In this document: piece after piece, positions 1 to 64,000 of the stretch | Layout: the number at the start of each line of letters is the position of its first letter | Position numbering within the stretch: the first letter of the stretch is position 1 | Assembly: GCA_938743325.2 (NCBI GenBank) | Contig: OW568873.1 | Span: forward strand, 124,001-188,000 | Length of the DNA stretch: 64,000 bases | DNA from: Pycnococcus provasolii | Taxonomy: Eukaryota; Chlorophyta; Pseudoscourfieldiophyceae; Pseudoscourfieldiales; Pycnococcaceae | Reading direction: 5' to 3' | Program-made: the position numbers and the translations under genes | Notes under the pieces: generated by a model | The model's database searches: none | Told to the model about the DNA's origin: nothing | What the model saw: the letters and a program-made list of their open reading frames with translations, nothing else

Positions 1-2997
1 ATTCGTGTGCATCTGATTTAGCTCGTGCCTCAAATGTGCCGCCGCGGCGTGATTCGGTGATTCGGTAGGAAGGCCACCGGCGTAGGCAACATGCGTGTCA
101 TCTGGCATCGCCCAAGCAGCTGGACGTGCCGCCTGCGAATGCGGGGTAATCATGTCTGCATCAGCTGGTGCGTAGGATGCAGGCGCGTGTGTCGCCACCG
201 CGGGTGCAGGTGCCGCAGGTGCCGCAGGTGTCTCAGCGGGCCTGGCAGATCGTGGGCCGCTGTCACCAACGGTTGAGGTGCCGCCGTCGGTGGCAGCGTC
301 CGCTGGACTTGCACCGCTGGAAGTTCTGCCCAAGGTGTGCTGAGATCGCAGCTGACGAAGCTCGGTCTTGATCAGATTGAGCTGAGCCATCGCGTCGAGC
401 GTGGCATTCGTGGGCTGCGGAGGCGGCGTCTGCTCATTCACGGCGGGCGATGGCGTCGCCTCGCTCTGGATGTTGCCAACATTAATAAGTCGCTCCATCT
501 CCGCTCGCATCATTGCCACACTCTCGCGCAGTTTCTCATTCTCTTCCTGAAGCAGCTTTTGCTGTTTCGTCTGATATGCTGAGGCACCCCCACTCGGCGC
601 GGGTGCGGGTGGCACAGGCGACATCTCGAAGCTTGAGCGCAAGCTTGGCACAGTGAAATCGCCTGGGCTCTGCAGCGGAGACGAGTCTGAAATGTTGCCA
701 CGATCGGGCGTGCGATGATCTGACGGGAGGGTGAGAGGCGACACGCCAGGCTGGTTGGGTGCGCGATGAGCGGGGTAATGAGCCGTCTGGCCCGCAAATG
801 AGGAGGGTGCTTCCGCCGGAATTCTAGCCTGCGAATCGGGATGCCTAGTGCTTGCCCCGGCATTCGGGATGATGGTCTGCTGGGGCATGGCTGCCGCGCC
901 GCCTACCGCGCTAGGTATCGCTGCTCCCGAGACGAATCCTGTGTGATGAGTATAGTACGTCTGCGGAGGTACTGGTGCCGTTCCACCACCTACTGCAGGT
1001 GGCACTGCTCCCGAGACAGATCCAGTATGCTTAGGGTTGCTCAGGATAACCTGAGGATGACCGGATGTAGAGGGTTCCGGTGCGGCTCTTGCGTGACCTG
1101 CCTGTGGATGAGTCGTCGTCTGCTGCGAATCGCTTGCCGCTGCACTCTCGGGATATCTCCCCGAGGATGTGTTTGGCTCTCTTGAGTAAACGAGGTGGCG
1201 CGGTGTTTGCGCAGCCGACACCGTGCCAGTTGCCGTTTCGTGAGTTCCAGGGACCGCGGTATGATGATAACTGACGTTTTGCATGGGCGCGTCTTCCGCA
1301 GCATTGGAGCTGTTTCTGTTGTTGTTGTTGTTGTTGTCATAGCGAGGCTGGGCGCCGATGCTACCACTTGCCGTGGGAGCTACAATAGCTTCTTGCCGGC
1401 TTTGTCCATCAAGGGCATGCGCAGTGCTGACGGGAGCACCGCCACTTGCCTGCAGCCTGGCACGCAGCGCCGCTCTTTCCTGGTCGCTCTCCTCCAACTT
1501 GCGTTCGCAAGCAACAAGGTCGTTGCGTCGTTGCGCTATTGTCTCCTTCATGCGCTCCAGCTTCGCCTTGAGAGATCTGATCTCCTCGTCGCGAGCCCAC
1601 ACGCGCTCCTCCACCTCGCGCACTCCCTGCACCGCAGTCGCCTTTGCCATACGAACCGCGTGCTCCGCGCCATCTGAGGCTGCCTCTGCAGCTGCCTCCG
1701 CCTTTGCACGCGCCTCGTCAGAACTGCGCAGCTCAGCGCGAACATCCGCGACACGGCGCTCCGCATCCTCCGCCGCCTTGCGCAGCTGCTTGTGGAGGTC
1801 ATCTACCTGCCCCAGCAGATGCGTTTGCGCGACGAGGTGTCTCTCCTTCTCCGCCTTGGCATTGCTTGCCACCTCCAGCCTCGCCTGCTCGAGCGCCGCC
1901 TCCATGCTCGCAACCTTCGCCGCCTCCTCGCCGAGTCGTGCCTGGAAGCTCGCCACCTCCATAGACCTCGCGTCGTCAGCCTCCTGCCTCTTCCTTGAGA
2001 AGCTCGCCTGTGCATTCGCCGTCTCGCGCTGCGCATTGTCACGTTCGAACGTCACCTGCGCGAGCTGTCTCTCCAGATCTCGCTCATTCTTTTCAGCCTC
2101 GGAGCACCTCGCGGCAGCCTCCGCGCTCTCCTCGCTCGCCTTCTTTTCCGCCGCTTCGGCAGTTTCGGCGCGCCTGAATGCGCGATCGCGATCTGCTGTC
2201 AGCGCGTCCATCTCCGCGGCGTGTTGCATCTGCATCTTGCGCACCACCTCGTCGTGGTTTTGTGCCATTTCAGTGCGCACTGCAGATAGCTCGTCCGCGC
2301 TCGCCTGCACCTTTCTCGCGCACGTTCTCCTTTCCTTCTCGATTTCTTCCCTGGCTTTGAGCGCGTTTTCGCTCGCGGTGAATCTGCTATCGTCGAGTGC
2401 GGTGCGCAGCTCCCCCAGCCTCCTTTGGTAGTACTGCTCCGCCTCCGCGAGCCTCGACGTCGACGTCCTGGCGTCGCTCTGCGCTTCTAGCAGCGCCGCG
2501 TTCGCCTCCTCGAGCGCCGCCCTGGACGCGTCCAACTGCTGCCTGAGTGCCGCTCCGTTCGTCTCCCACCTCGCGAGTTCTGCGTCACGCTCTTCGACGA
2601 GCTTGACGTTGTACCTGAAGTCCTCCTTGATTTGCTTGAGTTGTGCGAGCGCCTTTGCGCGTTCCGCGTCAGCTCGCGCCGACTTTTCCTCGAGCATGCG
2701 CACGCGCAGGTCTCTCAGTTCGTTGCACTGCTTCTCCGCGACAGCAATCCTCGGCGCGAGCGCGGCCGACGAGTCGGACGCGGGTACGGACGTCGTGTGT
2801 TCAGCGTCGGACGTCGTCCCCATCGCAGCGGACACCTGAGACAGGCGGCCGCGAGTCGCCGGGATATTCTGAGAATGAGAATGAGCCTCAGGAGGTTGCG
2901 AGGAGACCCCTAACGGCGCTGGCCTAGTGACTGAGGTAGACGGCTGATGCTGATGCTGATGCTGATGCAAGGCCGCACCATCGACGTTCGACGGCAT
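1..2997 (-). CDS. Large coiled-coil protein, 3' end beyond the window
   Basis: An uninterrupted minus-strand frame runs from ATG at 2997 off the left edge (999 codons visible). The N-terminus is His/Gln-rich (HQHQHQHQ). From about residue 85 to 560 it is almost continuous Glu/Arg/Ala/Lys heptad sequence typical of a long coiled coil, followed by a Pro/Ser/Thr/Gly-rich low-complexity stretch with a run of Asn and a second short coil (KQQKLLQEENEKLRE). Alternative starts are ATG at 2823 (just before the coil) and ATG at 3138; the frame is open back to 3183. The dense plus-strand open frames over it are antisense shadows. No catalytic domain is seen. A cytoskeletal, centrosomal or scaffold role is a guess from composition. 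Confidence 0.72.
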   Translation of the reverse strand, partial: MPSNVDGAALHQHQHQHQPSTSVTRPAPLGVSSQPPEAHSHSQNIPATRGRLSQVSAAMGTTSDAEHTTSVPASDSSAALAPRIAVAEKQCNELRDLRVRMLEEKSARADAERAKALAQLKQIKEDFRYNVKLVEERDAELARWETNGAALRQQLDASRAALEEANAALLEAQSDARTSTSRLAEAEQYYQRRLGELRTALDDSRFTASENALKAREEIEKERRTCARKVQASADELSAVRTEMAQNHDEVVRKMQMQHAAEMDALTADRDRAFRRAETAEAAEKKASEESAEAAARCSEAEKNERDLERQLAQVTFERDNAQRETANAQASFSRKRQEADDARSMEVASFQARLGEEAAKVASMEAALEQARLEVASNAKAEKERHLVAQTHLLGQVDDLHKQLRKAAEDAERRVADVRAELRSSDEARAKAEAAAEAASDGAEHAVRMAKATAVQGVREVEERVWARDEEIRSLKAKLERMKETIAQRRNDLVACERKLEESDQERAALRARLQASGGAPVSTAHALDGQSRQEAIVAPTASGSIGAQPRYDNNNNNNRNSSNAAEDAPMQNVSYHHTAVPGTHETATGTVSAAQTPRHLVYSREPNTSSGRYPESAAASDSQQTTTHPQAGHARAAPEPSTSGHPQVILSNPKHTGSVSGAVPPAVGGGTAPVPPQTYYTHHTGFVSGAAIPSAVGGAAAMPQQTIIPNAGASTRHPDSQARIPAEAPSSFAGQTAHYPAHRAPNQPGVSPLTLPSDHRTPDRGNISDSSPLQSPGDFTVPSLRSSFEMSPVPPAPAPSGGASAYQTKQQKLLQEENEKLRESVAMMRAEMERLINVGNIQSEATPSPAVNEQTPPPQPTNATLDAMAQLNLIKTELRQLRSQHTLGRTSSGASPADAATDGGTSTVGDSGPRSARPAETPAAPAAPAPAVATHAPASYAPADADMITPHSQAARPAAWAMPDDTHVAYAGGLPTESPNHAAAAHLRHELNQMHTN

Positions 2998-4018
2998 GGA
3001 CTGGCTTCCACTGCACTGCCAGCACTGATTCGGCCGTGTGCGAAATCTTGCCTTGCGGGGAGCTGCGAGCCAAAGCGCGGGCAAGGTTTGAAAAAGCAGG
3101 ACAGGACAGTGTAATTTTAGTGTGAAAAAGGAGTTCATGCAAGAGCGTATCCCCAAAGAAAGCTGAGCTTGAGCCTGAAAGCTTCAGCTGCTTCGCCTCT
3201 CACGGCCTGGCCTCCTCTCCTTCCTCCTGGTCATTTTCTTTGGCATCGCTCGCTGTCTCGACCATCTGTCTCGACCATCGTGCGATGATGGACTTCGCGC
3301 GATGTGATGTGATGTGTGCAATCACGTCCTTCACTTGGCTCGCAATCACCACCTTGGCTTGGCGAGTGGCGAATTTGCCGAATTTTTTTGAGTACAGTAG
3401 AACTACGTATGTAGGTGCGCCGATGCTGGTGGTGGGTAGGACTACTGGCCAGTGGCTGAGCCGTGAGCGTGTCAGCGTGTGTGCCTTTCTTACTACCGGG
3501 CGGTGCAATGCGCTCGCTGTTAATTAGACACGCAGCACCTGACACGCAGCAAGGTTGCAGCGCAGTCCAGTGCAGTGCAGGCAGACGGTAAACTTTACGG
3601 TGGCCGAGAGCTGCACTTGCGAGCACCTCACTCAGCGAGGTGGTCAACTTCACACTCCCAAGTAGCGCATCTAGCTAGGACGCGCTTTTCCTGTACAGTA
3701 ATTGGCGCAAACCCTCCTCCGCGCAAGCGGCGCAACGCGACGCCGTCTTACCGCTACCCGGTAAAAACACCTTGCGCGCACGGAGAGAGACTGCACTGCT
3801 TGAAGAGTCTGCGACCTTTAGCCGCGGGCGTGTGCGTTGTGCGTTTGCGTGCACATACAGTACGTATCTGCACTTAAGGTTAGTGTGTAAGCACACAAGC
3901 CTTCAGTTTCAGCCTCAAGAGTGTGTGCTGTATTGCCATCCGCTCCACACGGAAACGAAACACACACTTTCTGCTCTTAACGAACTACCTACCTAGGGAA
4001 AAACGATAAAGCTCTCGT
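2998..4018. other. Divergent intergenic region
   Basis: It separates the leftward coiled-coil gene from the rightward ankyrin gene and so should hold both promoters. No coding frame with protein-like composition was seen and no clear TATA box or repeat array was recognised. Confidence 0.5.
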
Positions 4019-55968: not shown

Positions 55969-56033
55969 CCTTTACCTGAAACCGACAGGTAAGTACGCCG
56001 ATTTTTTCGGCCGATTATGCCAGCGATCCGGCC

Positions 56034-56330
56034 GTGCGCCGACGCGTCATGAGTGCGTTGTGGGCGCTCATGACGCCGGCGGTCGCGTATTTGTACGTGC
56101 AGGTGGATCGAGTCTATCGAGGTGGTGGAGGAGGTGGAGGTGGAGGAGGTGGAGGAGGTGGACGCCAAGATCGTGCTCGTCCCAGACTCCCAGTACGATT
56201 CCGAGTGGAACCGGGTGGAAACGCGAGGACTTGGAGGAGCTAGTGAGGAGGGTGTTAACGCGGCTTGGAGACCGCGACTTCATCGCGGTGGCGTCGCGCA
56301 AGTCCGCGTGTCAAAAAACCTCCTCTCACA
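56034..56330 (+). pseudogene. Unknown gene fragment in duplication copy 1
   Basis: The sequence encodes RRRVMSALWALMTPAVAYLY and VQVDRVYR, then a GGTGGAGGA purine tract where frames diverge. Protein-like text resumes in other frames as VEEVDAKIVLVPDSQYDSEW and EDLEELVRRVLTRLGDRDF. Tract length changes seem to have broken the frame. No start or family recognised. Confidence 0.35.
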
Positions 56331-56482
56331 ACGCACATTTTGGTGGTGCGCCCGTTTCCCTCTCTCTCGCTGGACTGTCTTGCCCTCGAACGTCTTGCTG
56401 CTCGGAACGTCGTCACCGCTCGTCGCGCTCTCAGTTCGTTTAGTGTGGTCATTGGCCTCCTCTCATGTCCCCACTGGTTAGC

Positions 56483-56492
56483 AAAAAAAAAA
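56483..56492 (-). terminator. RNA polymerase III T-run terminator (tRNA copy 1)
   Basis: Ten T on the minus strand, 17 nt past the end of the 5' half of the permuted tRNA gene. Its position after the 5' half fits transcription of the permuted precursor as one unit. Confidence 0.7.
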
Positions 56493-56509
56493 GACTTTAA
56501 TGAATAAAG

Positions 56510-56605
56510 TAAAAGTCGCACGCTCTGACCAAATACTGAGCTACAAGGACAATATTTAGAGCATAGTTATATCCTTGGCGGGACTCGAACCCGCGGCCGT
56601 GCGAT
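56510..56605 (-). tRNA. tRNA-Lys: Circularly permuted tRNA-Lys(UUU) gene, copy 1
   Basis: On the minus strand the 3' half (56605-56570) comes first, then a 19-nt spacer (56569-56551), then the 5' half (56550-56510). Rejoined: acceptor GTCCTTG/CAAGGAT with discriminator A, D stem GCTC/GAGC (12-nt loop with GG), anticodon stem TGCGA/TCGCA, loop CTTTTA + A (anticodon TTT), variable CGGCC, T stem GCGGG/CCCGC with loop TTCGAGT. At the outer ends CTTT pairs with AAGG between bulges TAC and ATA, a bulge-helix-bulge site whose cuts (TA|C, AT|A) give exactly positions 37 and 38. No CCA is encoded. A box and B box are in reversed order. 77 nt mature. Confidence 0.85.
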
Positions 56606-56792
56606 ATCCTTCCTTATGTAGCGAAGACGGCAAAATTGGGTAAAAATCCCGAAGCGGTATCCCCGGCGAAAGCGGTGACATAATAGACAAAGCACATGTC
56701 GTATGTATCCGCTCAAGCTAAATGTGCTGAGCCCTCACTCACTTCCTTCGAACGCGAAGCCCTCTTCACTCAAAATCTCAAACGAACTGCTC

Positions 56793-57020
56793 ATGGCGCC
56801 AACGACGACCACCCCACCGCCGAGCAGCAAGCGGCAAAAGGTGACGGAAAGCATCCTCGCCTCGTCCGCCTCTTTGATTGACGCGATCGTCGCCTCCTCC
56901 TTGCCGTGCTCCTCCTCCAACAACTCCAACAATCAACGAACTCTCCTCACAGCCGCTCTCTCAGCCAAAAAACACAAAAACCAAAAACGAGCATCATGGG
57001 AAAAAGGTTCGGATGATTGA
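56793..57020 (+). pseudogene. Truncated 5' copy of the gene at 62945
   Basis: Identical by eye to the first 58 codons of the 62945 gene (MAPTTTTPPPSSKRQKVTES to LTAALSA); it then leaves the duplication and ends KKHKNQKRASWEKGSDD at 57020. A partial gene copy created by the duplication breakpoint. Confidence 0.8.
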
Positions 57021-60063: not shown

Positions 60064-61547
60064 CAAGCTTGTGTCTAAGGACCGCACGAAGGTTATACTT
60101 GGACTATTTTTCTTTACCGAGAACCAACGAACCGAAAATCTCGAAACGTAAATCTCCTGATCCTCGAAACACAGATCTCTAGATCTACAGCATCTTTGGA
60201 AATCTCGAAGTGAAATCTCTTGGACAACACCACACGGCTGCAAATCATGGACCCTATGGCCGCTGAGGGCCTTACTGACGGTATGACGCACCTGAAGCGA
60301 GAGAAATCCCGCAACAGCACTACGGACGCCATACTAAACGCTTTGGACAAAAAGAAATACGACGGGCAGCAGAAACAGTACCGTCGCTGGTTCAAGGCGG
60401 TTGTGGAGCAGCTAGAGGAAGTTGGCTTCTACAACATCGAGAGAGACATCAAACTTGAGAACCTTGAAGAGATCGACGAAGAAACTTGGGTGCAGTACTA
60501 CTCCGTTCCCGACCGACGTTATATCTATACAGCAGTGAAGGCAACGCTGTCTCAGGCTGCAAACGACGCGTACGAGAACGAGAAGAAAAACGGCATACTA
60601 CTCCTTCACCGTCTTTGGAAACTTCACGGAGCTCCTAACCTCGCGAACACCATATCAGCGCTGACGGAGCTACTGAACATCGAAACCACTATGCACCAAG
60701 ATCCCGCTCCGAACCTGCAGTCGCTGGAGCGTATTTTGACCGAGTTTTTCCCAGGCACACCGGACAACATGAAGATCGCCTTGCTCATGCGGACGGTGAA
60801 TACCGACAAATACCGCAGTATTTTGGACTCCATGTGGCAATTGTCTTTTGGATTGGTACTGCAAGCATCAGCCGTATACTACTCTGAGCAGTGGAGAGGC
60901 CGAGACCGTCGCCGGAGCGACCGCAGTCACTCATCTTCTCTATTGGAAACAGTTGTTTCTTCATGCTTTTCAACTAAGCGTGCAAACTTTCCTCTTCAGC
61001 GACTCAACTACGTGCAGAAATATCTTGACCAATCCGATTCACAACACGTCCATGAAGCATATCAGGACGCGATTGTTCTTTACGCGCGAGCACGCTCGTG
61101 CTGGAGTCTTCAAGCTCCTTCATACTCCAGGTGACGATAACCCATCTGATGCACTCACAAAACCTTTGTCTTTTCAACGAATTCAACACCTCATGCAGGT
61201 ACTTAAGTCGTGGGGTTACCGCGTACTAAATTTCATTAGGACTTCAGCGCAGGCATCGGCCGATGAGCCGTCAGCCAAACGCATGAAGCAGACCACAGCA
61301 CACGCCGATGGCGATGCATTCTAATGCGCAGGACTGATCACCCTGACGCTCTCTCATCTTTTCTTTTCTTTTCTTTTTGTTTATACGCCTTCGTGGCAAT
61401 TTTGGGTCCATGCATGGCATTGGCCGGACAGTGTCCTCATCGGTTTCATTTTCGTTTTCGGTTTCTTTTCCACCTTTTGTGGTTTTTCTTTTACCTTCAG
61501 TTTTACCTTACACGTGCAGCACCTTCGCCTGTTCGGCGTGGGTGGTG

Positions 61548-61937: not shown

Positions 61938-62119
61938 AGCCTTAAGAGTAACCCGCGGCCATCCTCATCCTCCCCTTTTTTGGTTGTGCCATCGCCTGAC
62001 CATTACTTTTTCGTGCAGGTATGTATGCCTTTGCTTGTCTGTCTGTTTGTCTTTGCTTGTCTGTGTTTTTTTGTGTGTGTGTGTGACCCTTAAACCTTTA
62101 CTTTTAAAAACCTTAAACC
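61938..62119. other. 182-bp insertion relative to duplication copy 1
   Basis: Flanked by AAACC on both sides (61933-61937 and 62115-62119), like a 5-bp target duplication. Content: pyrimidine-rich with TGTCTGTCTG and (TG)n runs; no coding sequence. It could be a small element or, equally, lost precisely from copy 1. Confidence 0.6.
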
Positions 62120-62129
62120 GACAGGTAAG

Positions 62130-62457
62130 TATGCCGATTTTTTCGGCCGATTATGCCAGCGATCCGGCCGTGCGCCGACGCGTCATGAGTGCGTTGTGGG
62201 CGCTCATGACGCCGGCGGTCGCGTATTTGTACGTGCAGGTGGATCGAGTCTATCGAGGTGGTGGAGGAGGTGGAGGAGGAGGAGGAGGTAGAGGCGGCGG
62301 TGGTGGAGGTGGACGCCAAGATCGTGCTCGTCCCAGTACGATTCCGAGCGGAACCGGGTGGAAACGCGAGGACTTGGAGGAGCTAGTGAGGAGGGTGTTA
62401 ACGCGGCTTGGAGACCGCGACTTCATCGCGGTGGCGTCGCGCAAGTCCGCGTGTCAG
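62130..62457 (+). pseudogene. Unknown gene fragment in duplication copy 2
   Basis: The same fragment as at 56034-56330: MPIFSADYASDPAVRRRVMS, ALWALMTPAVAYLYVQVD, then a GGTGGA tract of different length, then KREDLEELVRRVLTRLGDRD and FIAVASRKSAC. The frame relation differs from copy 1 because of the tract. No family recognised. Confidence 0.35.
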
Positions 62458-62634
62458 AACTCAGAAAACCTCCACTCTCACAACGCACATTTTGGTGGTG
62501 CGCCCGTTTCCCTCTCTCTCGCTGGACTGTCTTGCCCTCGAACGTCTTGCTGCTCGGAACGTCGTCACCGCTCGTCGCGCTCTCAGTTCGTTTAGTGTGG
62601 TCATTGGCCTCCTCTCATGTCCCCACTGGTTAGC

Positions 62635-62644
62635 AAAAAAAAAA
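62635..62644 (-). terminator. RNA polymerase III T-run terminator (tRNA copy 2)
   Basis: Ten T on the minus strand, 17 nt after the 5' half of the second permuted tRNA gene. Confidence 0.7.
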
Positions 62645-62661
62645 GACTTTAATGAATAAAG

Positions 62662-62757
62662 TAAAAGTCGCACGCTCTGACCAAATACTGAGCTACAAGG
62701 ACAATATTTAGAGCATAGTTATATCCTTGGCGGGACTCGAACCCGCGGCCGTGCGAT
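62662..62757 (-). tRNA. tRNA-Lys: Circularly permuted tRNA-Lys(UUU) gene, copy 2
   Basis: Same organisation and, by eye, same sequence as copy 1: 3' half 62757-62722, 19-nt spacer 62721-62703, 5' half 62702-62662. The bulge-helix-bulge boundaries and T-run are also conserved. It lies on the opposite strand to, and about 190 bases before, the 62945 gene. Confidence 0.85.
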
Positions 62758-62944
62758 ATCCTTCCTTATGTAGCGAAGACGGCAAAATTGGGTAAAAATC
62801 CCGAAGCGGTATCCCCGGCGAAAGCGGTGACATAATAGACAAAGCACATGTCGTATGTATCCGCTCAAGCTAAATGTGCTGAGCCCTCACTCACTTCCTT
62901 CGAACGCGAAGCCCTCTTCACTCAAAATCTCAAACGAACTGCTC

Positions 62945-64000
62945 ATGGCGCCAACGACGACCACCCCACCGCCGAGCAGCAAGCGGCAAAAGGTGACGGA
63001 AAGCATCCTCGCCTCGTCCGCCTCTTTGATTGACGCGATCGTCGCCTCCTCCTTGCCGTGCTCCTCCTCCAACAACTCCAACAATCAACGAACTCTCCTC
63101 ACAGCCGCTCTCTCAGCCAATATGTCCCGCCTCGCCCCTCACGTGCCGCCGTCTCATTTCAAACTCTCCACAACCCCTTTACTGCAATATGGACGCACGC
63201 TCAACCTGCTTCCGCTTCCGTCGGACATACCTCCGCCTCGCTCTTCTCTGGCTACGCCGCCTGTTGGGTTGGAACGATCGCACGACGACAACAACGCTGA
63301 CGACGACGACGACGAGAACAACGACGACTCACCACCCTCCGACTCACCACCACAGCAGCAGCAGCAGCTCCCAAAAGCTTTCGATGAACACCCACCTGGC
63401 AGCAGCAACGTCACTGCGCCTTCGTTCCTTTTCAACTACAAGCCTGCACAGCACAGGGCCATTGCTGCCAAGTCCGAGGCAGAATCCGAACGAATCACGC
63501 TCAACCGGGCTTGCGAGCCGCCACCCAACGAGACGGCAACCAAGTGGCACGGAAAGACGCCTATGTTCTTCGCGGCGGTTACTATTGTGGATGCTGACGA
63601 GCCCGATCGCGAGTTCAAGTTTGACCTCACGGAGCCGCTCACGTACAACAGCCACGGCGCGTGCTTTAACATTGGCATAGGAAACGACGGATCTCCGCTC
63701 ATCTCGTATAGCATCGTGCGCAGCTTCTACCAGCTTCCTGACGGCTCCATGTGGGCGGAGCACGAGGACTTTTACGACAGCGAGGACCTCGACGCGCTAG
63801 CCAAGCGCACGGGTAACAGGGCGCTGCGCAAGGCTCTGGACAAGCCTGCAACTGCCGCGAGCATTCCGGACGAGTGCAAGCCTGACATGCAGCTCGTTCG
63901 TCGAAGTGGGCGCTTTCACAGCCGCCTGGAGACGGTGGAGGAGGAGCTGTATGTGTACGACCGCGACGAGTTTGCACGCCGCGTTGCGGAGGAGAAGCTG
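62945..64000 (+). CDS. Unknown protein, 3' end beyond the window
   Basis: A continuous frame of 352 codons from ATG 62945 to the edge. Residues 1-60 are Ser/Thr/Pro-rich with a basic patch (SSKRQK); 60-170 are low complexity with Asp/Asn and Gln runs. A globular part follows: WHGKTPMFFAAVTIVDADEP, EPLTYNSHGACFNIGIGNDG, ISYSIVRSFYQLPDGSMWAE, HEDFYDSEDL. The VRSFYQLPDGSMWAEHEDFY segment faintly recalls BAH-type chromatin domains, but I would not assign it. The 5' 58 codons are duplicated at 56793-56966. Confidence 0.72.
   Translation, partial: MAPTTTTPPPSSKRQKVTESILASSASLIDAIVASSLPCSSSNNSNNQRTLLTAALSANMSRLAPHVPPSHFKLSTTPLLQYGRTLNLLPLPSDIPPPRSSLATPPVGLERSHDDNNADDDDDENNDDSPPSDSPPQQQQQLPKAFDEHPPGSSNVTAPSFLFNYKPAQHRAIAAKSEAESERITLNRACEPPPNETATKWHGKTPMFFAAVTIVDADEPDREFKFDLTEPLTYNSHGACFNIGIGNDGSPLISYSIVRSFYQLPDGSMWAEHEDFYDSEDLDALAKRTGNRALRKALDKPATAASIPDECKPDMQLVRRSGRFHSRLETVEEELYVYDRDEFARRVAEEKL

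Follow-up and report, generated by a model that had tools for sequence, protein, structure and literature searches.

With a probability of roughly 0.9, we read a duplicated locus of the prasinophyte Pycnococcus provasolii as a nuclear gene for tRNA-Lys(UUU) that is circularly permuted (type II, 37/38) and functional; its expression and processing are predicted from its structure. By itself this gene belongs to an already known class, and the novelty lies in the set to which it belongs together with the GT-AG introns found there. Genes of this permuted kind are uncommon, and neither their origin nor their use has been settled; some nineteen of them in a prasinophyte lineage for which we found no report offer a natural test set. 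Furthermore, nuclear tRNA genes with GT-AG introns would contradict the rule that assigns the introns of such genes to the tRNA endonuclease. They would also be a case of introner-type introns invading noncoding genes, and would allow a direct test of whether the spliceosome can process tRNA precursors.

Structure of the tRNA-Lys(UUU) locus

On the minus strand the locus reads, in order, upstream element, leader, 3' half, spacer, 5' half, short trailer and T10 run. Its features, and those of a second copy, are as follows, with positions counted in the window, i.e., the whole 64-kb stretch of DNA that was analysed.

56651..56664, minus strand: upstream element GGGGATACCGCTTC (pattern search)
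56606..56615, minus strand: bulge-helix-bulge leader strand, AAGGAAGGAT (pairing test)
56570..56605, minus strand: 3' half, tRNA-Lys(UUU) nt 38-73, with discriminator A73, CCA not encoded (sequence, rejoining, model R2)
56551..56569, minus strand: 19-nt spacer between the acceptor ends, presumably removed from a circular intermediate (sequence)
56510..56550, minus strand: 5' half, tRNA-Lys(UUU) nt 1-37, with A-box region and anticodon TTT (sequence, rejoining, model R2)
56506..56509, minus strand: bulge-helix-bulge trailer strand, bulge C and then outer-helix UUU (pairing test)
56483..56492, minus strand: T10 run, Pol III-type terminator (sequence)
62803..62816, minus strand: GGGGATACCGCTTC element upstream of copy 2 (pattern search)
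62662..62757, minus strand: copy 2 of the permuted tRNA-Lys(UUU), identical from nt 38 to nt 37 (sequence comparison, model R2)
62635..62644, minus strand: T10 run of copy 2 (copy offset of 6152 bases)
55974..56968, no strand assigned: duplicated segment, unit 1, which holds copy 1 (alignment with unit 2)
62110..63120, no strand assigned: duplicated segment, unit 2, which holds copy 2 (alignment with unit 1)

The permuted unit spans 56510-56605 (minus strand) and is of type II, its halves being joined at 37/38. When they are rejoined a 77-nt cloverleaf results, which ARAGORN names tRNA-Lys(ttt) and in which all stems pair (acceptor 7/7 with a G1:U72 wobble included, D 4/4, anticodon 5/5, T 5/5). 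The conserved bases U8, A14, G15-C48, G18G19, U33, TTC and A58 were read off the sequence, using position rules taken in part from the accessible text of PMC3978253; the exception to this pattern is a D-loop enlarged to 12 nt. The A and B boxes stand in swapped order. Within the spacer the longest T run is two and there is no terminator, while its 19 nt fall inside the range of 1-74 bp given for known permuted tRNA genes in the accessible part of that review (PMC3978253). The ends of the unit form a complete bulge-helix-bulge (BHB), with a central CUUU/AAGG helix (4/4 pairs), two 3-nt bulges (UA|C and AU|A) and an outer helix of 3 bp, and cutting it after nt 37 and before nt 38 gives the loop CUUUUAA. 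A sequence-only reading had proposed a minus-strand permuted gene with its 3' half first, four paired stems, swapped boxes, a BHB of CTTT/AAGG with two 3-nt bulges, cut sites yielding the exact Lys loop, and a T10 run (56492-56483) ending the unit; all of these held when the pairing was tested and the rejoined halves were analysed. That reading had overlooked copy 2, the 12-nt D-loop, the G1:U72 pair and the GGGGATACCGCTTC element, as well as the sister genes and the GT-AG introns that some of them carry.

The two duplicated units, about 1 kb each, are 96.3% identical (6 mismatches, 32 gap columns), and the gene copies within them are identical over 181 bases and form a direct pair 6152 bases apart. 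As the duplication is recent, this identity tells little about selection. Between the segments lie ORFs at window 60220-61324, which we take to resemble pieces of Ty1/copia gag and RNase H.

The recent duplication, the unusual 12-nt D-loop and the G:U at 1:72 would suit a pseudogene or rearranged relic, permuted by duplication and deletion of a normal gene and left unprocessed. We consider this improbable, given that the four stems, the exact 7-nt loop, the complete BHB and the T10 run have all been kept, that the same half order occurs in eighteen further isoacceptors (one tentative), and that a joined-sequence search found no intact Lys(UUU) paralog. Clearly less probable again is that neighbouring conventional, split or half tRNA genes, or a tRNA-derived repeat, mimic a permuted gene. 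In tandem tRNA arrays, too, a 5' start comes after a 3' end, but here the acceptor halves pair mutually over 7/7 positions and the anticodon halves over 5/5, no terminator separates them, and only two places were found in the genome, which gives no sign of a repeat family.

Detection and statistical support

For the functional permuted gene, a measure of support comes from covariance models. The training set of model R1 comprised six permuted units, Lys(UUU) among them, and 12 organellar tRNAs; because Lys(UUU) was in this set, a second model, R2, was built solely from the 12 organellar tRNAs of this genome, artificially permuted, with no permuted gene included. On the 64-kb window R2, the kind of permutation-tolerant search that the sequence-only reading had recommended, returned 56510-56605 and 62662-62757 at 64 bits each, with an E-value of 2.6e-18 that is rough by the covariance tool's own statement, and its third and last match up to E 10 scored 16.8 bits. 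The Lys(UUU) signal is far above chance. In the unmodified window no tRNA was reported by ARAGORN or by Rfam at the gathering threshold, as had been anticipated for standard finders. Although the original scan was done by eye, chance resemblance or assembly error is scarcely credible in view of the E-value from the independent model R2, the two copies, the many genes of like form on other chromosomes, and the HiFi-based CCAP190/2 assembly with its published QV of 58.2 (accessible text of PMC11130579).

Search for conventional tRNA genes

We searched 46 contigs, including C45 (mitochondrial, 24,277 bases) and C46 (plastid, 80,243 bases); the accessible text of the genome paper describes the P. 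provasolii CCAP190/2 assembly as 44 chromosomes plus a 24.3-kb mitochondrial and an 80.2-kb plastid genome (PMC11130579). Among the named hits for DNA polymerase delta, the best belong to plants and green algae. Genome-wide, the Rfam tRNA model gave 27 matches (24 organellar, 3 nuclear) among the 63 of 587 candidates that were scored. The three nuclear matches are Tyr, and Trp in two copies; all have introns and the normal order of parts, and these are the other nuclear tRNA genes resolved. The A-box pattern with at most three mismatches occurs at 24 places, four organellar and 20 nuclear, the latter comprising ten in six resolved permuted genes (tentative Met included), one in Tyr, five that are tRNA-like and partly parsed (L035, L039, L042/L043, L048) and four judged by eye to be chance (L047, L049-L051). 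The B-box pattern has 117 places in the genome, a part of which was examined.

Neither the Rfam matches (63 of 587 candidates scored) nor the A- and B-box places examined included a conventional tRNA-Lys, and the joined Lys(UUU) sequence matched only the two window copies in a genome search. A canonical tRNA-Lys(UUU), which had been named in advance as the refuting case, was thus not found by partial genome searches with patterns, Rfam and the joined sequence, and no plain intronless nuclear tRNA gene was seen in them. The standard finders applied here overlooked most of the nuclear tRNA genes resolved. Lys codons in five window ORFs are AAA in 49 of 272 cases, so a UUU anticodon is wanted.

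Several candidates were ruled out. L010/L011, taken as Gly, is Trp(CCA) by ARAGORN with introns allowed; L093, taken as a second Lys(UUU), is named Ile(aat) by ARAGORN once two GT-AG introns are removed; and an organellar origin of the Lys gene was dismissed on ARAGORN finding no tRNA-Lys in the readable organelle parts (24,000 of the 80,243 plastid bases being N). Separately, a nuclear frame at C8:308973-309701 (L016) matches RuBisCO_large and is joined to a second stretch, presumably cupin-like.

A set of permuted nuclear tRNA genes

About 19 distinct permuted nuclear tRNA genes were resolved by partial A-box and B-box pattern searches and short fetched stretches, followed by R1 and reading. 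The permuted form recurs in genes on other chromosomes, and the set is as follows.

Lys(UUU), Lys(CUU), Val(AAC), Val(CAC), Thr(UGU), Thr(CGU), Arg(CCU), Arg(UCU), Asn(GUU), Ser(UGA)
Ser(CGA), Ser(AGA), Leu(CAA), Leu(UAG), Glu(UUC), Ile(UAU), Ile(AAU), His(GUG), Met(CAU) (tentative)

Met(CAU), L040, is included as a tentative member (U:U at 31:39, U37), and L035 (as a whole gene), L039, L042/L043, L048, L058, L062, L063, L065, L084, L089, L102, L103 and L122 are left out of the 19. R2, trained on none of these genes, gave 32-68 bits to the thirteen that lack GT-AG introns and 29-35 bits to the intron-bearing Ile(AAU), Arg(UCU), Ile(UAU) and Ser(AGA), while Lys(CUU) reached 14 bits in pieces and Thr(CGU) was absent up to E 0.1. 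Given these low or absent scores, the permuted call of the six intron-bearing genes rests on the reading of their introns. ARAGORN assigned the expected anticodon to 17 of the 19 rejoined, intron-freed forms, Ile(UAU) and His not being called (by test set, 15/17, and 5/6 in the set adding Lys(CTT) and Ile(AAT)).

Lys(CUU), L036, lies at C26:15093 with an inverted copy at C26:22930 and is permuted with three GT-AG introns. Since it is itself permuted and split by introns, both Lys isoacceptors found are permuted. A G1:U72 first acceptor pair occurs in 11 of the 19 genes, and Arg(UCU), Ile(UAU) and His likewise have enlarged D-loops. U:U mismatches in the acceptor are common to Thr(UGU), Arg(CCU) and Arg(UCU); these and the recurrent G1:U72 may be a feature of the lineage or reflect editing.

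By pattern positions, tRNA loci or tRNA-like half sites often form inverted pairs about 3-13 kb apart, on contigs C3, C7 (two), C9, C15, C16, C20, C23, C25, C26 (two), C28, C34 and C37 (e.g., C7:989303+/994843- and 990293-/993853+), unlike the direct pair of Lys(UUU) copies.

Type II was assumed for all 19 genes, with junctions placed by the 7-nt loop and not by RNA. At least three of the four central BHB pairs form in 11 of 17 permuted genes tested, compared with 27% of 272 mismatched pairings in which the loop of one gene was set against the leader of another (permutation p 0.0004). All four central pairs are present in three of the 17, two of which, Lys(UUU) included, have the three outer pairs too. 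Fewer than three central pairs form in the other 6/17, so that some members of the set have a weak BHB motif. Within 220 nt downstream, 17/17 permuted genes have a run of seven or more T, compared with 3% of 2552 control stretches, which were taken from the window and not from the AT-richer flanks of tRNA genes.

GT-AG introns in permuted tRNA genes

Six of the permuted genes, Lys(CUU), Ile(AAU), Ile(UAU), Arg(UCU), Ser(AGA) and Thr(CGU), contain nine GT-AG introns of 69-80 nt. For each of the nine, out of 8 to 15 GT-AG excisions of 60-90 nt only the claimed one attains the best pairing, under a custom-made scoring that takes one intron per run with the gene's other introns already out. The best score after the claimed excisions is 19-21 of 21 pairs, a value reached by 2-8 of 2541-3781 arbitrary excisions. 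For a tenth intron, in the partly parsed L035, removal restores the T-stem and acceptor by inspection. In our own numbering the insertion points are 6|7, 8|9, 23|24, 28|29, 29|30, 31|32, 33|34, 63|64 and 67|68, with 64|65 in L035, and one of the Lys(CUU) introns sits between U33 and the first anticodon base.

One intron family, GTAAGTCTACC ... CACTAAYAACCTAACACACTAA ... AG, of 69-75 nt, is represented in Ile(UAU), Arg(UCU), Ser(AGA) and L035, the boundaries of its members being fixed by the family and not by the fit to the tRNA. Four of the ten tRNA-gene introns belong to this shared family and show 87-96% identity to whichever of seven protein-gene copies is nearest; the six outside it are each 73-80 nt long (one in Thr(CGU), two in Ile(AAU), three in Lys(CUU)). 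The family tail occurs in the genome at 122 places with at most three mismatches, some of the three-mismatch places among those listed being telomere-like CCCTAACAC runs, and at 22 places exactly, whereas the reversed pattern has none. Three of the 22 exact places are in tRNA genes, and eight of the other 19 were examined. Removal of GTAAG..CAG (73-84 nt) left a frame open across the junction in 8/8 of these non-tRNA places, with a stop further downstream in one; the test took the best of three frames over about 240 nt, where open frames also arise by chance, a second frame being open in L157 and likewise, with another AG, in L154. Going by motif labels, two of these places are presumably kinesin-like and metallo-beta-lactamase-like stretches. 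Near-identical introns of the family, most of them about 73 nt long, are scattered across many chromosomes of the genome.

A search with the spliced form of Ser(AGA), which covered near-identical matches, found only the two intron-bearing copies on C34. Several partly parsed loci, i.e., L122 (C7:498911), L035 (C16:504313), L039 (C7:591971), L089, L065 and L084, seem to be split by at least one GT-AG intron; in L039 the A-box exon lies between CACAG and GTAAGT.

Judged by their sequence, the tRNA-gene introns look like the spliceosomal type, the removal of which would fall to the spliceosome, and permuted tRNA genes with such introns appear to be new. We think it likely that much nuclear tRNA is made from scrambled precursors through two splicing machines, the spliceosome removing GT-AG introns from acceptor, D, anticodon and T stems, in part derived from introners, and the tRNA endonuclease circularising at 37/38, such that both Lys isoacceptors found would depend on permutation and Lys(CUU) would need three spliceosomal excisions. 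If true, the spliceosome would be essential for translation through tRNA itself, and the question would arise whether Pol II makes these tRNAs, or Pol III acting with an upstream element common to protein genes.

Upstream element

An element akin to GGGGATACCGCTTC precedes other tRNA genes and also occurs at many further places in the genome, and 10 of 17 permuted genes have GGATACC no more than 120 nt upstream. GGGGATACCKGTTC is strongly over-represented, with 70 exact places and 287 at no more than one mismatch, compared with 5 for a control pattern. R1 found a permuted tRNA at 0 of 20 exact GGGGATACCKGTTC places examined elsewhere, several of which resemble upstream regions of protein genes by eye. 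With 287 against 5 places and 0/20 with a permuted tRNA, GGGGATACC was ruled out as a tRNA-specific promoter, and GGGGATACCKGTTC may be a general promoter element.

Proposed maturation

We infer that the Lys(UUU) gene is transcribed, circularised, processed at its ends and used in decoding, by steps that would, by analogy, follow the pathway of algal permuted tRNAs, in which BHB cleavage leads to ligation into a circle, spacer removal and CCA addition (accessible text of PMC3978253). A linear precursor of leader, 3' half, spacer, 5' half and trailer would be transcribed up to the T10 run, and its ends would fold into the BHB, where the tRNA-splicing endonuclease would cut behind nt 37 and ahead of nt 38. 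The cut ends would be ligated into a circle, from which RNase P and tRNase Z would excise the 19-nt spacer, and CCA would then be added to the 3' end. The tRNA-endonuclease domain PF01974 has matches at two genome loci.

Comparison with known systems

In the accessible part of a 2014 review, 34 permuted tRNA genes are listed for seven species, with at most 11 per genome and none from Pycnococcus (PMC3978253). Later reports, as far as their text is accessible, add two permuted genes in the Amorphochlora nucleomorph and further ones in Auxenochlorella (PMC12633428). The term tRNA is absent from the accessible main text of the P. provasolii genome paper (PMC11130579). In literature searched without most subscription papers, we found no paper joining 'permuted tRNA' with 'Pycnococcus' and, in the accessible text, no report of spliceosomal, introner or mRNA-type introns in tRNA genes.

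The closest systems are Ostreococcus, Micromonas and the Bigelowiella nucleomorph (Maruyama et al. 2010, via the accessible text of PMC3978253), which share with the Lys gene the half order, the 37/38 BHB junction, the nuclear or nucleomorph location and the green lineage; the earlier comparison with prasinophytes stands, and Pycnococcus is itself a prasinophyte. Their type II spacers of 5-64 bp are similar in size to the 19 nt of the Lys gene. The differences, within what is accessible of the review, are that its table gives no Lys for green algae and 3-6 genes per green nuclear genome versus 19 in Pycnococcus, that their junctions are described as hBH whereas that of Lys is a full hBHBh', and that GT-AG introns go unmentioned for their permuted genes but occur in six of those in Pycnococcus (PMC3978253).

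As regards the introns, members of the Pycnococcus introner-like family lie within tRNA genes, for which we found no counterpart in the accessible reports on introner elements. Auxenochlorella belongs to another green-algal group than Pycnococcus. Its chlorophyte nuclear permuted tRNA genes were found, according to the accessible text, after tRNAscan-SE had given an incomplete set (PMC12633428). Introner elements are spliceosomal introns that spread as families, as their accessible descriptions have it, and the Pycnococcus family is similarly near-identical and dispersed (PMC12730881, PMC11782384).

In Cyanidioschyzon merolae (Soma et al. 2007, via the accessible text of PMC3978253), Lys(UUU) is permuted too and many tRNA genes are disrupted. 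There, however, the Lys(UUU) gene is of type IV (59/60) with a spacer of 38 bp, compared with type II and 19 nt in Pycnococcus, and the extra tRNA introns are described as BHB-mediated, whereas those of Pycnococcus are GT-AG introns partly common to protein genes (PMC3978253).
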